Assembly (NCBI GenBank): GCA_002787815.1
Contig: PCUY01000043.1
Coordinates: 47,005-91,407 of the forward strand
Source of the DNA: Bacteroidetes bacterium CG12_big_fil_rev_8_21_14_0_65_60_17
Lineage (GTDB): Bacteria; Bacteroidota; Rhodothermia; Rhodothermales; UBA10348
Reading direction: 5' to 3'
Length of the DNA stretch: 44,403 nt
Each line of letters begins with the position of its first letter. The stretch's first letter is position 1. Below are positions 6,120 to 42,642 of the stretch, piece by piece. The position numbers were made by a program, and so were the translations under genes. The notes under the pieces were generated by a model, which was given only the letters and a program-made list of their open reading frames with translations, was not told the DNA's origin and did not search any database.

Positions 6120-7490
6120 ATGGATGCCTGGACACTCGAGCTTACTGTTGGCGATCTGTTGTTGGATATTTCCATCCTCGGCGCGCTCCTTCTTCTGGGA
6201 ACGGTCCTCAGGAGACAGGTTCGCTTTTTCCAGCGATACATGGTGCCGAACAGCCTGATAGCTGGATTCATGGGTCTTTTCCTGGGATCGGAGCTTTTCA
6301 ATGTGCTTCCTCTCGACCCGGAGCGTATGGGGGCCTACGTCTATCACCTTCTGGCGGTCACATTCATCGGGATCGGGCTGTATCCCACGTCAAGCAGGCA
6401 TACCACAGGAGCCGTTCACCTGGGATTCATGCAGGTCAGCATCATGCTGATTCAGGGCATAGTGGGTGTTGGAATTGCCCTGGCAGCAACGTGGCTGGTA
6501 CTGCCCGACCTGAACCCGGCCATGGGGCTGCTGCTCCCGCTGGGCTTCGCCATGGGGCCCGGAATTGCATACTCTGTCGGTCAGTCCTGGTCGGCATTCG
6601 GATACGAAGACGGTGGTAATGCTGGTCTTTCCATTGCCGCCATTGGTTTCCTGGTCGCCTATTTCCTCGGAATGTATCTCATAAACGGGACACGGGCGCA
6701 CGCCGCGGATCCCGCCCTCCTGGACTCAGGTTTTCTGCCGGCCACCGATCGGCCGGTCGGCTCCCGACTTTCCTTTTCCGGAGCAGCCATAGAACCTCTG
6801 GCTGTACACGTCGCCCTCGTCGGAGGTATTTATTGTCTCACATACCTCCTCGTAAGCAGCCTGGCCGTGCTGTTGACCCTTGCCGGTCTGAGCCAGGAAA
6901 TTCCGGTTCTCTGGTCCTTCCACTTCATACTGGCCAACCTCATGGCTGTGGGGATGCGGCGACTTGTGCTGCGTGGCTGGGCCGGAGACTGGATAGACGA
7001 GGGAATGGTACGCCGAATGACCGGTACGTTTGCCGATTACCTGATCACCGCTTCGATCGTCGGAATCAGTCTGAGCGTATCGTGGGATTTCGTTGCCCCG
7101 ATCCTGGCCATTTCTGCAGGTGGCACGCTCGCCACGTACCTGTTCCTGAAGCTCGTTGTCCGCCGTGTTTTCGGTGCGCACGTATTGGAGCGATTCATAG
7201 CCATGTTCGCGCAGATGACCGGGACCATCAGTTCGGGTCTTGCACTGCTTCGCGTGACCGATCCGGAATATCGTACACCCGTCGCGGAAGAATTGGTTCT
7301 GGCCAGTGGAATGGCTCTCGGCATGGGATTCCCGCTGCTTCTGGCCATCAACATGCCATTCTCCCTCTTCGATGGCAGCACGCCTGGCTTTCTGATTCTC
7401 TCAGGCGTGCTTCTTGTCTACCTGGCCGTCCTTCTCGTCTGCTGGAACAGATTCGCCCGCACGAATCCGGGAACGCATACTCCGGAGTGA
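6120..7490 (+). CDS. gltS: GltS-type sodium/glutamate symporter family protein
   Basis: A 456-residue polytopic protein with roughly ten to twelve hydrophobic helices. Features recalling GltS are the N-terminal VPNSLIAGFMGL segment, the glycine-rich LLPLGFAMGPGIAYSVG stretch with GHG-like small-residue packing, and the FGYEDGGNAGLSIAAIGF segment. A second half repeats a similar pattern with TGTISSGLALLRVTD (about residues 366-380), consistent with the inverted-repeat fold of the family. Known members import glutamate with sodium across the inner membrane. The substrate here is inferred only from the family. It follows the acyltransferase by 17 bases and precedes a lipoprotein gene. Confidence 0.8.
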   Translation: MDAWTLELTVGDLLLDISILGALLLLGTVLRRQVRFFQRYMVPNSLIAGFMGLFLGSELFNVLPLDPERMGAYVYHLLAVTFIGIGLYPTSSRHTTGAVHLGFMQVSIMLIQGIVGVGIALAATWLVLPDLNPAMGLLLPLGFAMGPGIAYSVGQSWSAFGYEDGGNAGLSIAAIGFLVAYFLGMYLINGTRAHAADPALLDSGFLPATDRPVGSRLSFSGAAIEPLAVHVALVGGIYCLTYLLVSSLAVLLTLAGLSQEIPVLWSFHFILANLMAVGMRRLVLRGWAGDWIDEGMVRRMTGTFADYLITASIVGISLSVSWDFVAPILAISAGGTLATYLFLKLVVRRVFGAHVLERFIAMFAQMTGTISSGLALLRVTDPEYRTPVAEELVLASGMALGMGFPLLLAINMPFSLFDGSTPGFLILSGVLLVYLAVLLVCWNRFARTNPGTHTPE

Positions 7491-33759: not shown

Positions 33760-35103
33760 TCAATCATTGCTGTAGCGGTGAAGGCCGGCCCGTTCGGCCG
33801 GCGCATTCTTGAGCAGCAGCCCGATGCCGGCCATAAAAAGCGTCAGGGCACCTATGCCGGCAAATGCCGTCGTGTATCCGAGTACGGGATCGGACGTCGA
33901 GGCGGCGATGGCGCCGACGGCCGTACCCGTAAGGAGCTGGCCAACAGAAATGAACAGTGTTATAAGCCCTTGGGACACAGCACGTTCTGCCTTGCGTGCT
34001 TCGTGAATCAGGATATAACTGAGAGCGGAGCCCATAAGTCCGGCCAGCCCCAGACCAATCATGACGCTTCCACCGTAGAACCAGACTGCATGGTCGGGGG
34101 CAAACGACACGCTGAACATGCCCCCGGCCAGTACCGCATTACAGGCAATCACGACACGACGCGATCCCCACACGTCGAGCAGCCGACCTGCAAGCGGTGA
34201 ACCGAGCGCGACGGCCAGCATGAGCGGCAACAACATGAACGATGCGGCCGATTTGGTCACACCGAAAGCCAGCACCGCCAATGTCGGGAAATAGATGAAT
34301 GCTGCTTCGCTGATCCCGGCGCCCACGGCCTGAATGCATGCAATGGATACCTGCCGGTTCTTGAGCAGTCCGAGCCGCAGTATGACATCGTGGCCGAGGC
34401 GCTCACCGCGCCGCTCTGCAAATACGAAGAGCAGCAGGAATGCCAATGCCATGGCAATGAGCAAAGGCACTTCGAGTGATATTCCGGCAGCCAGCGATAC
34501 CAGGGCCAGGGCCAGCGTCACGAGCCCGGCCGCATCGAACGTTTTCCTGTCGGGGCGTATCCCTGTTTTCGGCAAATTCCGCATACCGAACCAGGCAATG
34601 AGCAGCGAGACGGGCACGAAAACGGCGTATACCCATCGCCATCCGACAAGAAGCAACATACCGGCGGCAATGGGACCGATAATGAAGGCCACACCGAACA
34701 CGGAACCCAGCACACCGAATGCCCTGCCCCGCCGCTCCGGAGGAAAACTGTCGCCAACAAATGCACCCGCCACAGGAAAGAGGCCTGACACAGCCAGTCC
34801 CTGAATGGCCCTGCCAACCAGCAATACAGGAAACGACCAGGACAGGGCAACCATACCGGCTCCCAATCCGAAAAGCCCGATATCCATCAGGTAAATGCGC
34901 TTGCGACCGAAACTGTCCGCGAGCTTCGACATGACCGGCACGCCTACGAGGTTGGCCAGCACCCAGATCGTGAATACCCATGAAACCCCCCGCTCACCGA
35001 GATCATAGGCTTCCCGTATCGCCGGAATGACGGGACCCAGGATGGCAATATCCAACGCCGCCATGAGAACCCCCAGAAACAGAACAGTCAAAATGCGTTT
35101 CAC
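33760..35103 (-). CDS. MFS transporter, multidrug efflux-like
   Basis: A 447-residue major facilitator protein with about 12 helices. Motifs are the N-terminal AALDIAILGPVIPAI stretch, motif A MSKLADSFGRKRIYL in loop 2-3, and motif C-like GSVFGVAFIIGPIAAG in helix 5, typical of drug/proton antiporters (DHA). The substrate is not predictable. It is divergent from the GH3/beta-lactamase fusion (82-base gap) and convergent with mscS. A hairpin (33784-33802) lies inside its 3' end. Confidence 0.9.
   Translation of the reverse strand: MKRILTVLFLGVLMAALDIAILGPVIPAIREAYDLGERGVSWVFTIWVLANLVGVPVMSKLADSFGRKRIYLMDIGLFGLGAGMVALSWSFPVLLVGRAIQGLAVSGLFPVAGAFVGDSFPPERRGRAFGVLGSVFGVAFIIGPIAAGMLLLVGWRWVYAVFVPVSLLIAWFGMRNLPKTGIRPDRKTFDAAGLVTLALALVSLAAGISLEVPLLIAMALAFLLLFVFAERRGERLGHDVILRLGLLKNRQVSIACIQAVGAGISEAAFIYFPTLAVLAFGVTKSAASFMLLPLMLAVALGSPLAGRLLDVWGSRRVVIACNAVLAGGMFSVSFAPDHAVWFYGGSVMIGLGLAGLMGSALSYILIHEARKAERAVSQGLITLFISVGQLLTGTAVGAIAASTSDPVLGYTTAFAGIGALTLFMAGIGLLLKNAPAERAGLHRYSND
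33784..33802 (+). terminator. Weak hairpin downstream of mscS
   Basis: GCCGGCC (33784-33790), loop CGTTC and GGCCGGC (33796-33802) form a perfect 7-bp GC stem 35 bases after the mscS stop, followed by GCATTCTT. It sits inside the 3' end of the convergent MFS gene. It might end mscS transcription, but the T-run is poor. Confidence 0.3.
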
Positions 35104-35185
35104 AGCAAATCAGGGATTGGATGGCATGACGTTCAGATACCGGAGGAACAGCGCGGGTTTACACGTTGAAACCTATTTTGTCCCT

Positions 35186-38110
35186 ATGAACACCCCGACT
35201 TCTCCCGCGTTTCGAGTGGCCGCAATGCTGTCGCTTCTCGCCCTTTTTTCGGGTGGATGCGACCGCCCCGCCGACGAACACCGCGCCGAACAGCCTTCCC
35301 TGCTGGAAGAAATCTCAGGCCACTCTCTCGTCCGACGGGCCTCCTCCCTCTTCATGATCCCCATCCCGGCCAACATGGACATCCGGTCCGAGGACGACCG
35401 AATGCGCCTTCAGCGGGACGTGCTCGATTTTGGTGCCGGAGGCATTGTGCTCTTCCAGGGAGATCCGCTGAAACAGGCGGCAATCGTGGCCTGGCTGCAG
35501 GCGAAGTCAACCGAGCCGCTGCTCGTGGCGGTGGACGCCGAATGGGGTGCAGGAATGCGCATGGACGGCATGCCCGTATTTCCACGGGCAATGGGTATTT
35601 CGGCCACCTGGGACCATGACCTGGCCTACGCCCTCGGGCGGCGAACAGGCCTCGATGCCCGGGCAGCCGGCGTCAACATGGTGTTCGCACCTGTTGCCGA
35701 CGTCAACTCCGAATCGCGAAACCCGGTCATCGGGACGCGCGCCTGGTCTGATGATCCCGACACGACGGGCCACTACGCCACAGCATTCATGAGAGGACTC
35801 ACCGACGCGGGCGTACTGGCCGTCCCGAAACATTTTCCCGGTCATGGTTCCACCACGACCGATTCCCATTCCGGCATCACACGTGCTGAAATCGGCCTGC
35901 GGGACCTGCTCCCGTTTCGCCGGCTTGCAGAAGCGGGGGCACCGGCCATGATGAGTGGTCATATCGTGTGGTCCGACTCACTACCCGCTTCCCTCTCGCA
36001 CCGCGTATCGACTGCCGTTCTGAGAGACTCCCTCCACTTTCAAGGCCTGCTTGTCACGGATGCGCTTAATATGGTGGGCGCCACCGCCTTCGGATCACCA
36101 CCCGACGTGGCACTCGCGGCCGTGCGCGCCGGTGCGGACTTGCTGCTGATGTCGCCACGCCCGGAGGCCGCCCGCGCACGACTCGTGCAGGCCGTCCGCG
36201 ATTCGACGCTTCGTCCCGAGCGCCTCAATGAGGGGGCGGCGCGCGTGCTGAAGGCACGGCGCGCGGCGGGCCGCGTCATGCCTGAGATGGGACTGCTCGC
36301 CAGACGGATGACGGAAACGGACCTGGAGGCCGCGGACGCCGCGCGTCGCGCCGTGACACTCGTCACGGCGCCCGCGCCGCCCCCTCACGCCCTTCCCATC
36401 CGCCTCGAGGGACGTCCCGTCGTGCTTGTGCAGACCGACTTCCGGCTGCAACCCGTTGCGCCCTCATCCGTCGCCGATCCGGCGACTGTACTGCAGCGCG
36501 AGCTACAGCGGGAGACGAAGAGAGACGTACGCATTGTGCGCGTGTCGGCGCGTGACTGGGCGCGCGGCCTGGCGAATGCCCGAGGGGATATCGAGCGCGC
36601 TGGAACCGTCATCTGGATCGATGCCGTGGGAACCGTACCCGTTGCCGGGTGGGACGGAGAAGTGTTTTCACGCCGTCTTGCAGATCTCGTACGGTCTGCA
36701 GATTCCATACCCCCGCAACGCAGCCTGACAGGCATTGCCCTCGAAAACCCCTGGCTGTCCGCCAGCATGGCAGCCCACCTGCCCACTGTACTCGTCGCCT
36801 ATGACCGGCACGAACCCACTCTTGTCGCGCTCGCGGAAGTTCTGACGGGGCGTTCGGGCACCACCGGGCGCTTGCCTGTCCATGTCTCGACCACCCTTCC
36901 CCGGGGTACGGGACATGTTCTCAAGGCATCGCGCCCCCACGTGGGCCCTGCTGAATCGGTGGGTATGGACGCAGCCGCTTTGGATAACGTTCTCAACATC
37001 CTGCGCGAAGCCCGGGCAGACAGCGCGTTCCCTGCCGCCACGGTAGCCATTGGCCGCCACGGCACCGTGGTACTTTCCGAAGCGGTAGGTACCCCATCCT
37101 GGGTGACGGACAGACGCGTTACGACACGCGACATATTCGACCTCGCCTCCATGACGAAGGTCGTCGCCACCACCACACTGGCCATGCTCCTCGTCGAAGA
37201 GGGGCGGCTGGAACTGGACAGGCCCGTTGCCGAGTACCTGCCTGCGTTCGGAGCGGCCGGCAAAGGCCTGGTCACCGTACGGGATCTCCTGGCCCATCAC
37301 TCCGGCCTTGTCCCATTCATCCCATTTCATGCACAAGGCGTGCGTACTGCGGCAGGCGTGCGCGCACGCATTCTCGCGGACAGCCTGGTCTATGCCCCGG
37401 GCGATGATGTGCGCTACTCGGACTTCGGCCCCATCACGCTGGCCTGGGTCATGGAAGAGATCACCGGCAAACCCTTTGACGTACTCGCCAGGGAACGGGT
37501 TTTTGAACCGCTGGGCATGCTCCATACCGGGTTTCGGCCGAACAGACCCTCGAACCGCCCCGATATCGTGCCGACTGAACTGGACGACTACTTCCGTCGT
37601 CGCCTGCTCCGCGGCGAAGTGCACGATGAGAATGCCTGGATCCTGGGAGGCACCGCCGGTCACGCCGGCCTGTTTTCAACCGTCGAGGATCTGGCCATTT
37701 TCGCATCGATGATGGTAAATGAGGGCAGAACAGGGGCCCACCAATTCCTGAAACCCGAAACCATAAGGTCCTTCACGACCCGCATCAATCCGAGCGGGCC
37801 CGGGACGCGTGCGCTTGGTTGGGACACACGAAGCCTTTCCGGGTACTCTTCCGCGGGTGCGCATTTCGGGCCGCGCGCCTACGGTCATACAGGATATACG
37901 GGAACATCCATGTGGATCGACCCCGACCAGGGACTCTATGTGATTCTGCTGACCAACCGGGTGCACCCGACCCGAAACAACAGTCGCCTTGTCCCGGTGC
38001 GCCCGGCCGTCGCCGACGCCGCCTTTCTTGGCCTTGTTGATCGCGACCACCGGGGAAATGAACAGCGGCAATCTGAATGTTCCGAGGAGACAGGAACCGG
38101 CACGTGCTGA
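35186..38110 (+). CDS. GH3 beta-N-acetylglucosaminidase fused to a beta-lactamase-family serine hydrolase, lipoprotein
   Basis: About 974 residues from ATG 35186, which gives a lipoprotein signal with lipobox SGGC (Cys25). The frame is open upstream but lacks a signal peptide. The N-terminal half is NagZ-like GH3: KHFPGHGSTTTDSHSG near residue 214 and the probable nucleophile Asp292 in LLVTDALNM. A GH3 C-terminal domain follows (about 380-580). The last 350 residues are a class C/S12 serine hydrolase: SxxK Ser655 in ASMTK, YSDFG with Tyr744, and HTG at 901-903. The architecture is known from Bacteroidota and probably acts on peptidoglycan fragments in the periplasm. It is followed 53 bases later by the FmdB-like gene. 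Confidence 0.93.
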   Translation: MNTPTSPAFRVAAMLSLLALFSGGCDRPADEHRAEQPSLLEEISGHSLVRRASSLFMIPIPANMDIRSEDDRMRLQRDVLDFGAGGIVLFQGDPLKQAAIVAWLQAKSTEPLLVAVDAEWGAGMRMDGMPVFPRAMGISATWDHDLAYALGRRTGLDARAAGVNMVFAPVADVNSESRNPVIGTRAWSDDPDTTGHYATAFMRGLTDAGVLAVPKHFPGHGSTTTDSHSGITRAEIGLRDLLPFRRLAEAGAPAMMSGHIVWSDSLPASLSHRVSTAVLRDSLHFQGLLVTDALNMVGATAFGSPPDVALAAVRAGADLLLMSPRPEAARARLVQAVRDSTLRPERLNEGAARVLKARRAAGRVMPEMGLLARRMTETDLEAADAARRAVTLVTAPAPPPHALPIRLEGRPVVLVQTDFRLQPVAPSSVADPATVLQRELQRETKRDVRIVRVSARDWARGLANARGDIERAGTVIWIDAVGTVPVAGWDGEVFSRRLADLVRSADSIPPQRSLTGIALENPWLSASMAAHLPTVLVAYDRHEPTLVALAEVLTGRSGTTGRLPVHVSTTLPRGTGHVLKASRPHVGPAESVGMDAAALDNVLNILREARADSAFPAATVAIGRHGTVVLSEAVGTPSWVTDRRVTTRDIFDLASMTKVVATTTLAMLLVEEGRLELDRPVAEYLPAFGAAGKGLVTVRDLLAHHSGLVPFIPFHAQGVRTAAGVRARILADSLVYAPGDDVRYSDFGPITLAWVMEEITGKPFDVLARERVFEPLGMLHTGFRPNRPSNRPDIVPTELDDYFRRRLLRGEVHDENAWILGGTAGHAGLFSTVEDLAIFASMMVNEGRTGAHQFLKPETIRSFTTRINPSGPGTRALGWDTRSLSGYSSAGAHFGPRAYGHTGYTGTSMWIDPDQGLYVILLTNRVHPTRNNSRLVPVRPAVADAAFLGLVDRDHRGNEQRQSECSEETGTGTC

Positions 38111-38163: not shown

Positions 38164-38430
38164 ATGCCTACCTATACGTACCGAAGGAAAGACGGCACGA
38201 CGTTCGACATCGAACAGCGGATCACGGACGATCGCCTCACCACGTGCCCCACGACCGGGCAACCCGTAGAGCGTCTCATTTCCGGAGGCGGCGGCCTCGT
38301 TTTCAAAGGGTCCGGCTTCTATCAGACCGACTACGTCCGCTCGGGTCAGAAGAGCCATTCTGACGAAAAGGCCGACAACGCGTCCTCCAGCGACAAAAGC
38401 GCTACGCCCGCATTGCCGCCCGCACAATAG
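38164..38430 (+). CDS. FmdB-family regulator-like protein lacking zinc cysteines
   Basis: Starts at ATG 38164, giving 88 residues. The family start MPTYTYRRKDGTTFDIEQ and the RLISGGGG...FKGSGFYQTDY block match FmdB/putative regulatory proteins. In standard members the first part has CxxCG (YRCxxCG) and the second CPxCG. Here the first becomes YRRKDG and the second TCPTTGQ, leaving a single cysteine, so no zinc knuckle is possible. I recall the same loss in relatives of this clade. A serine-rich tail follows. It overlaps the convergent tpiA by 29 bases. Confidence 0.85.
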   Translation: MPTYTYRRKDGTTFDIEQRITDDRLTTCPTTGQPVERLISGGGGLVFKGSGFYQTDYVRSGQKSHSDEKADNASSSDKSATPALPPAQ

Positions 38431-39154
38431 CCAGGAACGATTCGGCCTGCAGGCTCGCGCCCCCGATAAGGCCACCGTCAATGTCCGGCTCTGAAAGCAG
38501 GGCATCGGCATTTTCCGGTTTCATGCTTCCGCCATACAGGATGTTGATGTGCGCCGCATCTCCCGCATTGAACAGCGTCGCCAGTTCAGAGCGGATATGT
38601 GCATGGATGGCCTGCGCCTCACCCGGACTCGCTGTTCTTCCGGTACCGATAGCCCATACCGGTTCGTACGCCACGACGAGCCGCCCCTTTCCCGGATATT
38701 CAATACCTTCGAGGGCGCCGCGGATCTGGTCGCTCACCACCTTCTCCGCACGACCGGCATCGCGCTCCTTGAGCGACTCGCCGACACACACCACAGGGAC
38801 AAGCCCGTGACGAAGAGCCTGCGCCACCTTGTCTCGAACCGACGCGTCGGTCTCGCCGAAGTACTGGCGCCGCTCCGAATGACCCAGGATGACGTGTGAG
38901 CAGCCCACTGACCGGAGCATGGAGGCCGATATTTCACCCGTGAAGGCGCCGGATTCCTCGGCGTGCATGTTCTGCGCCCCCACGGAGACGGGAGATCCAT
39001 GCACGAGTCCGTACACGGCATCCAGATAGGCAAAAGGCGGACAGAGGACGACCTGTACCTGCCCGGGGTCTTCCAGATTATTCCGGATGGAACCCGCCAA
39101 CTGGCGCGCGGCGGGCATGTCCAGGTTCATTTTCCAGTTTCCGGCAATCAACAT
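38402..39154 (-). CDS. tpiA: Triosephosphate isomerase
   Basis: A 250-residue TIM-barrel enzyme that interconverts dihydroxyacetone phosphate and glyceraldehyde-3-phosphate. Catalytic parts are readable: Lys8 in GNWKMN, the His in ILGHSERRQYFGE, the catalytic Glu in VAYEPVWAIGTGRTAS and the phosphate loop LYGGSMKPENA. The length is normal. It starts 4 bases after the stop of the thioredoxin-fold lipoprotein gene on the same strand and overlaps the convergent FmdB-like gene by 29 bases. Confidence 0.97.
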   Translation of the reverse strand: MLIAGNWKMNLDMPAARQLAGSIRNNLEDPGQVQVVLCPPFAYLDAVYGLVHGSPVSVGAQNMHAEESGAFTGEISASMLRSVGCSHVILGHSERRQYFGETDASVRDKVAQALRHGLVPVVCVGESLKERDAGRAEKVVSDQIRGALEGIEYPGKGRLVVAYEPVWAIGTGRTASPGEAQAIHAHIRSELATLFNAGDAAHINILYGGSMKPENADALLSEPDIDGGLIGGASLQAESFLAIVRAAMRA

Positions 39155-39158
39155 GGCA

Positions 39159-40544
39159 CTATTCGCCCCCGGCGAGTTCGTTCAGACGCGTTACAATGGA
39201 AATCAGATCGTTCTGGAGCTCGTTCAGTGTGCGCCCCACGTACTTCGACACAATACGCCCGTCCGGATCGATCAGAAAGCGCGTGGACGTGGCATGCACG
39301 TTGTATGCGGAAACCACCGGGCTGTCTTTACCCGACGGTAGCCAGACGAAGGTTCCCGGATGACTTTCCCCGCCATCAAACAGGGCTTCGTTCACATCCT
39401 CGTCCGGCTCAAGAGAGACCGAAACCACACGGAAGACATTGTCCTGGAGCGCGCCGAACAGGCCGTCCCTCATGGGCATGTCCTGCCGGAACGCGGTGTC
39501 CCATGGATCGAAAAACTCCAGTATCACGAATACACCGCGCATTTCTTCGAGTACGACCCGCTCACCCGTCCGGGAAGTCACATCAAACGTCGGAGCAAGC
39601 ATTCCGGGTTGCAGGTTCTCGAGATCATAACTCGCACGCGAAGCCCAGTCCGCCCATGACGACCCAGGATACGTACTCCTGAGGAGCGATGCCGTCTCGA
39701 GGGCCTTTTCCACGTCACCACTGTCCGAATAGGCCACCACCAATTCAGACATCAGGCCTGCTTTCTGCTCATCCCGCGAGACGCGCTCCAGATACGTTTC
39801 CACGACGTCAAGGGCTGCATCCTGGCCCCGTTCGCGAGCTACTGCCCGACGAGCCGCACGGATGACCTCGGTAATACTCGGATTGTCCAGGCCGATCTCC
39901 GTGTACCGGGCTACCACGAGGGAATCGTTCCATCCTTCCACCATGAGGACCGATTCAGCGCGGGCTATACGTGCGCCCATGGTCTGCGGGTAGGTATCTC
40001 CGATCCCCCACAGGATGGATGCCGTCTGCTCGACCTGGGCGCGGACGGCGACGGGCTCCGGATTTCCGTCGGAGGCCAGTGCGGACAGGCGCTCGCTGTG
40101 TACAGCTTTGGTATTCCGGTACGCCGACCACGATGCATTCTCCGGCGAGCGGATGATCAGTGGCCGGTTTCCGAGTGGATAGGTTCCAGAGATGCGGATC
40201 GAATCGCCATCGACAATAACCAGCTGGTCGAGCGACATCTGCTCACCCGATCTTTCCACAACGAGCGGGTAAATTCCTGACTCGGGAGCACGTACCTGCA
40301 TGGAAAAGAATCCGCTTGCGTCCGTTTCTGCCGTTGCCAGTGTGTCCACATCTCCTTCCACCTGGTTGAGCACCGATACCAGGAAACCCCTGTAATCTCC
40401 TGTCTCGTCCACGTTCCCCCGGACGCGGAGCGTGCCCTCGACGTAACTGCTGACGGGTGGCTCTGACTGGCCACATGCCATCATGGTGTGGGCGAGTAGA
40501 ATGACCAGTACGGGGAACAAGCGGCTCAAAGAGGGTACATACAT
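39159..40544 (-). CDS. TlpA-like thioredoxin-fold lipoprotein without redox cysteines
   Basis: A 461-residue lipoprotein (lipobox TMMAC, Cys24). An N-terminal DUF4369-like beta domain (about 35-135) is followed by a helical middle (150-300) and a C-terminal AhpC/TlpA thioredoxin fold (about 312-457). The usual WCxxC is replaced by WDTAF (348-352) in FVILEFFDPWDTAFRQDMP. The cis-proline position before the last strands reads STRFLID, so proline is absent too. It cannot act as a dithiol oxidoreductase. It may be a binding or structural relative of the family. It precedes tpiA by 4 bases. Confidence 0.85.
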   Translation of the reverse strand: MYVPSLSRLFPVLVILLAHTMMACGQSEPPVSSYVEGTLRVRGNVDETGDYRGFLVSVLNQVEGDVDTLATAETDASGFFSMQVRAPESGIYPLVVERSGEQMSLDQLVIVDGDSIRISGTYPLGNRPLIIRSPENASWSAYRNTKAVHSERLSALASDGNPEPVAVRAQVEQTASILWGIGDTYPQTMGARIARAESVLMVEGWNDSLVVARYTEIGLDNPSITEVIRAARRAVARERGQDAALDVVETYLERVSRDEQKAGLMSELVVAYSDSGDVEKALETASLLRSTYPGSSWADWASRASYDLENLQPGMLAPTFDVTSRTGERVVLEEMRGVFVILEFFDPWDTAFRQDMPMRDGLFGALQDNVFRVVSVSLEPDEDVNEALFDGGESHPGTFVWLPSGKDSPVVSAYNVHATSTRFLIDPDGRIVSKYVGRTLNELQNDLISIVTRLNELAGGE

Positions 40545-40665: not shown

Positions 40666-42642
40666 TTACCATGCCACGAGCCGTTCCAGGGACCCGGCTA
40701 CGCGCGACTCGGCCGAGTATATATCCTTTTCCAGCGCTGCGGAGAAAGGTACCGGCATGTGTTCGGCACCCAATCGGACCGGCGGCGCATCCAGGTGCTC
40801 GAACGCTATCTCGGCAATTTCAGCGGCAATCTCCGCCCCGAAACCACCCGTCCGCGACGCCTCGTGGACCACCATCAGGCGGTGCGTCCGGCGGACCGAA
40901 GCCAGGACCGTTTCACGGTCCCACGGAACGAGTGTGCCCAGATCCACCACGTCTACATCCAACCCGGTCTCCTCCGCCGCCGCCTCGGCCCACCACCGGG
41001 CCACGCCCCATGTTACGATCGTCGCCCTGTTCCCCCGCCGCACGAACCGCGCACGGCCGAGTGGCATTCTTTCCGGAGCATCGGTCACCGGGGCCTTGAT
41101 GGACCTGTAAAGCTTCTTGTGTTCGAGGAACAGCACGGGATTCGGATCGTCGAGCGCTGAAAGCAGCAACCCCTTCGCACTTTCGGGGTCGGATGGAAAG
41201 ACGACCTTGAGTCCCGGAACGTGGCAGAACCAGGCCTCCATGCTCTGGCTGTGGAACGGCCCGGCACCAATGCCACCGCCAATCGGCGCGCGAAGCGTCA
41301 CATTCAGGGGAGCCCCCCACCGGTAGTGGGTCGTTGCCAGATTGTTGACGATCTGGTTGAACCCACAGGTAATGAAGTCGAAATACTGTATTTCCAGAAC
41401 CGTCCGGTATCCGCCCAGAGCAAGTCCCATGGCGGCTCCCACGGCACCGCTTTCGATAATGGGTGTATTGCGCACGCGCTCCGGCCCGAAGGCCTCCAGA
41501 AATCCCGATGTGACCTTGAAAACCCCTCCGTATTCTGCAATATCCTGGCCCATGAGCACGGTCCTCTCGTCCTCTTCCATTGCCGTTCGGAGTCCGTCCG
41601 TAATGGCGTCAATGAACCGCTTCTCACTCGAGGTCGCCACGGCCCCGCCGCTGATCGGAGCGGCCCGATCCGGGTCGCTGTCCCTCGACACGGCGAACAC
41701 ATCCTTGCGCTCGGCCTCTGAGGTGCTCGTCACATGCGGTTGCGTGAGTGCCCACTCGGCCACATCATCCACTTCGCGGGTTATTTCTTCACGGATCCGC
41801 TCGCGCAGACCCGGTGATAGGTTGGAGCCTGGTCCTGCCTCAAAACGTTCAATCGGGTCTTTCTGGGCCCAGGAATCCATGAGTTCCGCGGGAACATACT
41901 TCGTTCCGGACGCCTCCTCATGTCCACGCATCCGGAACGTTTCCAGGTCCAGCAGTGTCGGTCCATCGCCACGTACGCCCCGTTCGCGGGCCCGCCGCAC
42001 GGCCGCACGCACCGCCTCGAGGTCATTCCCGTTCACACGTTCGGAGGCCATTCCGTAGGCCGGACCACTGAGACTCACATCCCGCTCTGGCAGCGCCTGC
42101 CGCGTCGGTGTACTGAGCCCGTACCCATTGTTTTCCACGATAAATATGACGGGTAACTTCCACAACGAGGCCAGACTGAGCGCCTCGTGGAAATCTCCTT
42201 CGCGTGTAGCCCCCTCCCCCACGAATGCCGCAGCAACGCGCAACCGTCCATCCAGATGCGATGCCAGGGCAAGCCCGTTGGCGACCGGCAACATCGCGGC
42301 CAGGTGCGAGATCATGCCCACCAGATGGTGTGAAGGCAACCCGAAATGGAACGTCCGGTCCCGCCCTTTCGTGAATCCGCCTTCCCGACCCATGAGTTGA
42401 CAGAAAAGGGGCCGCAGGGGAACGCCACGCGTCGTCCAGACACCCACGTTCCGGTGCATGGGAAGCACCCAGTCTTCGTCATCCAACTCCCATGTGACCC
42501 CCACCGCAATAGCTTCCTGTCCGTAGCCACTGAACCACTTCGATATCCGGCCCTGCCGAATGAGACGCAACATTTTTTCCTCGATCAGTCGAGGCGTGAG
42601 GAGCGCCCGGTACAACTTCTCGAGATCCTGTTCTCTGGTCAC
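40666..42642 (-). CDS. 2-oxo-acid dehydrogenase E1, alpha and beta fused
   Basis: A 658-residue protein with a GTG start at 42642. Residues 1-310 are the E1-alpha half with a thiamine-diphosphate motif GEGATREGDFHEAL (142-155) and NNGYGLSTP (171-179). The GEG rather than GDG form and the overall fit suggest the branched-chain type. Residues from about 335 are the E1-beta half: DIAEYGGVF, NTPIIESGAVGAAMGLAL, GGGIGAGPFHSQSMEAWF and VPSDPE-like FPSDPESAKG. It would decarboxylate 2-oxo acids and pass the acyl group to a lipoyl E2. E2 and E3 are not in the window. The start overlaps the sugar-transferase stop (GTGA). Confidence 0.93.
   Translation of the reverse strand: MTREQDLEKLYRALLTPRLIEEKMLRLIRQGRISKWFSGYGQEAIAVGVTWELDDEDWVLPMHRNVGVWTTRGVPLRPLFCQLMGREGGFTKGRDRTFHFGLPSHHLVGMISHLAAMLPVANGLALASHLDGRLRVAAAFVGEGATREGDFHEALSLASLWKLPVIFIVENNGYGLSTPTRQALPERDVSLSGPAYGMASERVNGNDLEAVRAAVRRARERGVRGDGPTLLDLETFRMRGHEEASGTKYVPAELMDSWAQKDPIERFEAGPGSNLSPGLRERIREEITREVDDVAEWALTQPHVTSTSEAERKDVFAVSRDSDPDRAAPISGGAVATSSEKRFIDAITDGLRTAMEEDERTVLMGQDIAEYGGVFKVTSGFLEAFGPERVRNTPIIESGAVGAAMGLALGGYRTVLEIQYFDFITCGFNQIVNNLATTHYRWGAPLNVTLRAPIGGGIGAGPFHSQSMEAWFCHVPGLKVVFPSDPESAKGLLLSALDDPNPVLFLEHKKLYRSIKAPVTDAPERMPLGRARFVRRGNRATIVTWGVARWWAEAAAEETGLDVDVVDLGTLVPWDRETVLASVRRTHRLMVVHEASRTGGFGAEIAAEIAEIAFEHLDAPPVRLGAEHMPVPFSAALEKDIYSAESRVAGSLERLVAW

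Follow-up and report, generated by a model that had tools for sequence, protein, structure and literature searches.

A CxxC-less branch of the TlpA/ResA-like fold encoded next to tpiA in the Rhodothermia

The locus and its product

The window, a stretch of 44,403 nucleotides from the genome of Bacteroidetes bacterium CG12_big_fil_rev_8_21_14_0_65_60_17 (class Rhodothermia, order Rhodothermales; contig PCUY01000043.1), contains on its minus strand a gene (39159..40544) for a TlpA/ResA-like, lipoprotein-like protein of 461 aa without a CxxC motif, identified from its open reading frame and translation, Pfam and phmmer. The protein is probably secreted and lipid-anchored and has three parts, all encoded on the same strand. 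By reading, the signal-peptide region (40464..40544) carries a lipobox-like MMAC with C24 (residue numbers count Met1), the sole cysteine of the protein. The N-terminal part (about residues 28–150; 40095..40463) is beta-rich, with approximate boundaries and a low-confidence model; the middle region (about residues 151–305; 39630..40094) is helical by the modelled secondary structure, whose confidence is low as far as about residue 219; and a thioredoxin-fold domain (about residues 306–455; 39180..39629) is recognized from Pfam and from ResA structures. Among the 137 full-length orthologues described below, the C24 column is a cysteine in 127, and a simple lipobox pattern matches 110, excluding the window protein, whose MMAC is atypical. 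We infer an envelope location for the window protein.

The tpiA gene (38402..39154, minus strand) starts at 39154, 4 nt downstream. On the other side is a 658-aa minus-strand ORF (40666–42642) in which E1 dehydrogenase alpha-like and transketolase-type beta-like halves are fused (PF00676, PF02779, PF02780). Elsewhere in the window, a 1027-aa plus-strand ORF (35027–38110) combines a glycosyl hydrolase family 3 domain with a serine beta-lactamase-like domain.

Pfam AhpC-TSA matches residues 314–432 with 29.7 bits against a gathering score of 26, and among PDB sequences ResA chains match best (4nmu, 1.5e-11). In a structure model built with five sequences only, pLDDT is mostly 70–87 in the thioredoxin part and below 50 over most of residues 18–219. 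The thioredoxin part compares with Z scores of 17.9 to 3fw2 and 3gl3, 17.7 to 4nmu, 17.1 to the ResA variant 2h1a and 16.6 to 4grf, and it bears out the sequence-only reading that the fold around the motif is preserved. That reading had also noted WDTAF at residues 348–352 (39489..39503, minus strand) where WCxxC is expected, and the 461-aa ORF reads just so; phmmer alignments against ResA chains place WDTAF onto the WCxxC position and S420 onto the proline of the PT pair.

The likeness to ResA, TlpA and DsbE proteins (4nmu, 1st9, 3gl3) consists of the thioredoxin fold over about 134–138 residues at 21–25% identity, whereas the window protein lacks the CxxC and has two extra parts in front. 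It also lacks the cis-proline (Ser420), and its NCBIfam scores are 45.8 for ResA (cut-off 170) and 20.3 for TlpA (cut-off 230). Multi-domain thiol-disulfide oxidoreductases of Bacteroides (3fw2, 4grf) resemble it in their thioredoxin domains, but CxxC is carried at 17 of the 20 TlpA-like paralogue places taken from inside and outside the class, and DUF4369 is found in only one of 39 family members, weakly (E 0.068); CarboxypepD_reg is found in 10 of the 39, at best with E 0.001. For the AhpC/TSA peroxiredoxins, the Pfam score is above gathering and the peroxidatic cysteine is absent. By membership, the window protein is not a thiol-disulfide oxidoreductase but a real CxxC-less branch of the TlpA/ResA-like fold, and with no cysteines in the domain, CxxC chemistry would, judged from the sequence, be impossible for it.

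Distribution, motif and selection

Of the 114 genomes of the order, 89 have a match at an E value of 1e-8, as do 62 of the 77 that are near-complete; in four of the 89 the match consists of fragments or a paralogue alone. The 85 order orthologues aligned here come from 98 loci, 94 of them with a match, after nine rows were dropped: copies of L006 and L007 (L035, L036), Bacillus-type ResA (L037, L038), partial sequences (L094–L096) and paralogues (L097, L098). A profile of 39 order sequences (the window protein and 38 of the other 84) finds a match in 210 of 244 class genomes, and 52 orthologues outside the order were chosen among the matches listed. Within the order, identity to the window protein goes down to 30%; in the 52 others it is 20–32%. 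A phylum-wide profile search (394 genomes) gave outside the class, among the matches listed, only the thioredoxin domain or part of the helical region with it, and among the titles and abstract starts listed in a literature search, none describes the family.

In the order-wide search there is no match in genomes of f2, f9, f12 and f15, among others. Twenty-six genomes, 25 without a match and one (G060) whose match is a paralogue, were searched with tpiA; 20 yielded a locus, and ORFs of at least 110 aa on the tpiA strand were read within up to 1.5 kb upstream (only about 0.5 kb in L117). A hidden CxxC-bearing orthologue was sought in these 20 loci, and no ORF of matching architecture was seen. 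A gatB-like ORF, named by reading, ends 51–97 nt before tpiA in four loci (L099–L102) and about 500 nt before it in two (L104, L105), and a peroxiredoxin-like ORF, likewise named by reading, is upstream of tpiA in six (L103, L107, L108, L110, L112, L116). With some genomes lacking a match and gatB-like and tpiA genes adjacent in L099–L102, the protein is not indispensable throughout the order.

The loss of the cysteines is old and class-wide. CxxC is absent from all 137 full-length orthologues (85 from the order and 52 from elsewhere in the class), and within residues 330–445 only two orthologues (L089, L090) have any cysteine, one each, near the end and off the motif, which is more than chance would give. 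At the first cysteine position (349) 118 orthologues have D, N, E or S, a constraint on part of the old loop, and at the second (352) 134 have Y, F or W. P347 does not vary among the 85 order sequences but does among the other 52. Residues 348–351, the old active-site loop, average 2.95 bits of variability against a domain mean of 2.32; the frame around the loop and the N-terminal part are conserved, and the loop itself is variable. Among the 20 paralogue places, L220 and L226 also have no CxxC and L228 has CxxS, and the loss of cysteines thus recurs.

The history of the cis-proline is different. The sequence-only reading described the loss of both cysteines and of the proline, and this holds for the window protein (WDTAF, and S420 followed by TRFLID) but not for the family, in which 134 of 137 orthologues keep the proline; the exceptions are the window protein (Ser) and the two distantly related f21 proteins (Leu, Ile). 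At codon 420 (39285..39287, minus strand) the window has TCC where the same-genus L006 and L007 have CCC, one base apart; Ser420 is private to the window genome and the proline loss there is recent. Since the proline is kept in 134 orthologues and CxxC in none, the cysteine loss and the proline loss are not one event.

The window gene is under purifying selection. Comparison with the two same-genus genes gives dN/dS of 0.04–0.08 in the N-terminal, helical and thioredoxin parts alike, unlike a decaying gene, these values being rough because dS exceeds 1.3. In the N-terminal part D67, T68, G78, D114 and S133 are identical in all 137 orthologues, and the most conserved sites of the thioredoxin domain are E343, N415, R422, G429 and Y435; no cysteine or histidine is among the thioredoxin-domain sites conserved in at least 90% of the 137. 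E343, six residues before the first cysteine position, is present in 136 orthologues (D in one), and R422, two residues after the cis-proline site and missing from the aligned paralogues, in 130, with W in the remaining seven. These seven are f13 sequences (L085, L086, L089–L093) that retain E343. The R422 site presumably neighbours the E343 site in the thioredoxin fold, and the two residues may pair in the core. According to PMC3961690, the position six before the first cysteine is occupied by a buried acid, Asp-26 in thioredoxin and Glu in some other thioredoxin-fold proteins. The proposal of selection for a non-redox role is thus upheld in part: the cysteine loss is kept under purifying selection, but the variable loop does not indicate a conserved new function at the old active-site surface. 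The window protein looks like an ancient non-redox protein that has been maintained, and not like a broken enzyme.

Gene order and the f21 tandem paralogue

The tight linkage to tpiA noted for the window is old. In 133 of 137 loci (81 of 85 in the order and 52 of 52 in the rest of the class) the gene is followed on its own strand by tpiA, within 120 nt in 105 of the 133, and the four order loci without it end at a contig edge within 772 nt. Within the order the gap reaches at most 3.5 kb (L051). A methyltransferase-like ORF sits between the CxxC-less gene and tpiA in two f13 loci (L053, at 6775–7398, and L082; Pfam was run on L053 only). Upstream, a gatB match is found in 117 of 137 loci (65 of 85, and 52 of 52), and an E1 dehydrogenase gene is within 400 nt in 17 loci of the order, as in the window. 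With gatB and tpiA so distributed, the order gatB, CxxC-less gene, tpiA is probably ancestral.

The two genomes of one family, f21 (L149, L150), have a second full-length gene between the CxxC-less gene and tpiA. Its product has its own WCQPC and cis-proline, is homologous to the adjacent CxxC-less protein along most of its length (29% identity across 397 alignment columns), and has front and helical parts that score 72–78 bits with the family profile, the next best paralogue among the ORFs tested scoring 20. In L149 the frames of the two genes overlap by a few bases. Among the matches listed from the 244 class genomes searched, no full-length CxxC-bearing relative of this copy was found outside f21, and CxxC paralogues of similar length are present in the class.

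Trees were built with the motif columns dropped and on chosen subsets, namely 79 rows for the thioredoxin domain, 50 rows in a further tree, and 42 for the full length (eight paralogue rows of the 50 omitted). The CxxC-less proteins form one clade in the full-length tree (UFBoot/SH-aLRT 100/99) and one side of a branch in the thioredoxin-domain tree (SH-aLRT 94), a single origin on the tree. The f21 CxxC pair is sister to the CxxC-less clade in the full-length tree (94/83, not starred) and is placed among other CxxC proteins in the thioredoxin-only tree; a constraint grouping the four f21 copies is disfavoured at full length (p-AU 0.039). The trees and the f21 pair fit a tandem duplication that preceded the radiation of the class, the redox copy being lost later elsewhere; it is also possible that the f21 CxxC copy arrived independently beside the CxxC-less gene.

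Possible roles of the CxxC-less protein

We consider the best explanation, and one that is reasonably probable, to be a non-redox, envelope-anchored binding or scaffold protein of a family with a single old loss of the cysteines. Both catalytic cysteines would have been lost a single time, no later than the base of the class, and probably following a tandem duplication, in the gatB–tpiA neighbourhood, of a TlpA-like gene that carried CxxC; the thioredoxin domain would survive as a folded binding or scaffold module, in which the acid E343 is kept, the cis-proline is kept in the family, R422 and the aromatic residue at 352 are present, and the old loop varies. More tentatively, the protein may bind envelope clients or help to assemble them. 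Calsequestrin and the b and b' domains of protein disulfide isomerase have binding roles. They share with the window protein a thioredoxin fold without CxxC function, as described for calsequestrin in PMC7949104 and for b/b', called inactive, in PMC9352907, and as eukaryotic proteins of other architectures they serve as an analogy only.

Other explanations have to be weighed against this binding or scaffold role. That the cysteines are missing through faulty sequencing, or because the gene is decaying in the window genome, is barely credible: the frames are open, and the 137 orthologues without CxxC together with the dN/dS values rule this out as the cause of the CxxC loss. Only at Ser420, which is private to a genome of 90 contigs and differs by a single base from the codon of the sister species, is an error or polymorphism possible. 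It is unlikely that the protein forms a complex with a CxxC-bearing TlpA-like protein in which it is itself the inactive half, presenting clients or setting specificity, the partner being the tandem neighbour in f21 and an unlinked paralogue elsewhere. Such a complex is suggested by the adjacent full-length paralogue in both f21 genomes, with overlapping frames in L149, and by the at least four unlinked WCxxC TlpA-like proteins of the window genome, but the listed matches from the class include no such relative of the f21 copy outside f21, and the old active-site loop, where a partner would be likely to make contact, is variable. Nor was a partner oxidoreductase found in the window, where an AhpC-TSA search of its own genome places no other member; an adjacent CxxC paralogue is seen only in the two f21 genomes. 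Nine AhpC/TSA-type places are found in the window genome, among which the window protein scores lowest; when the others were scanned for motifs, four showed WCxxC and one a peroxiredoxin-like motif. These other genes can supply redox TlpA-like functions.

The strong conservation of E343, N415, R422, G429 and Y435 would also suit a catalyst independent of cysteine, or a carrier of a small ligand or metal, acting for example through E343, R422 and N415. This we regard as very unlikely, given the lack of cysteine and histidine among the well-conserved sites of the domain and the location of the conserved sites on strands or turns, where they would be expected to be structural. The gene might instead be retained mainly through its operon with tpiA and gatB, its own role being minor or dispensable, and here the near-complete genomes without a match and the four loci in which a gatB-like ORF and tpiA are adjacent without it are pertinent; its retention over at least two orders under strong purifying selection makes this quite unlikely.

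Because Pfam AhpC-TSA accepts the protein, automatic annotation could name it a thiol-disulfide oxidoreductase or peroxiredoxin, and with no cysteines in its thioredoxin domain it is neither by cysteine chemistry. The family offers a single-origin case of a bacterial thioredoxin-fold enzyme becoming a non-enzyme; because two genomes have a possible relative of the redox parent next to it, the change of function can be tested. A speculative history, which we put forward with considerable doubt, is that of a class-wide pseudo-thioredoxin arising by tandem duplication, in which one copy lost both cysteines, kept the buried acid (perhaps now in a pair with a new arginine) and took on a maintained envelope task, so making the redox parent dispensable in every lineage seen but one. 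If the tandem duplication is correct, the f21 genomes would preserve the redox and non-redox members of the pair side by side.
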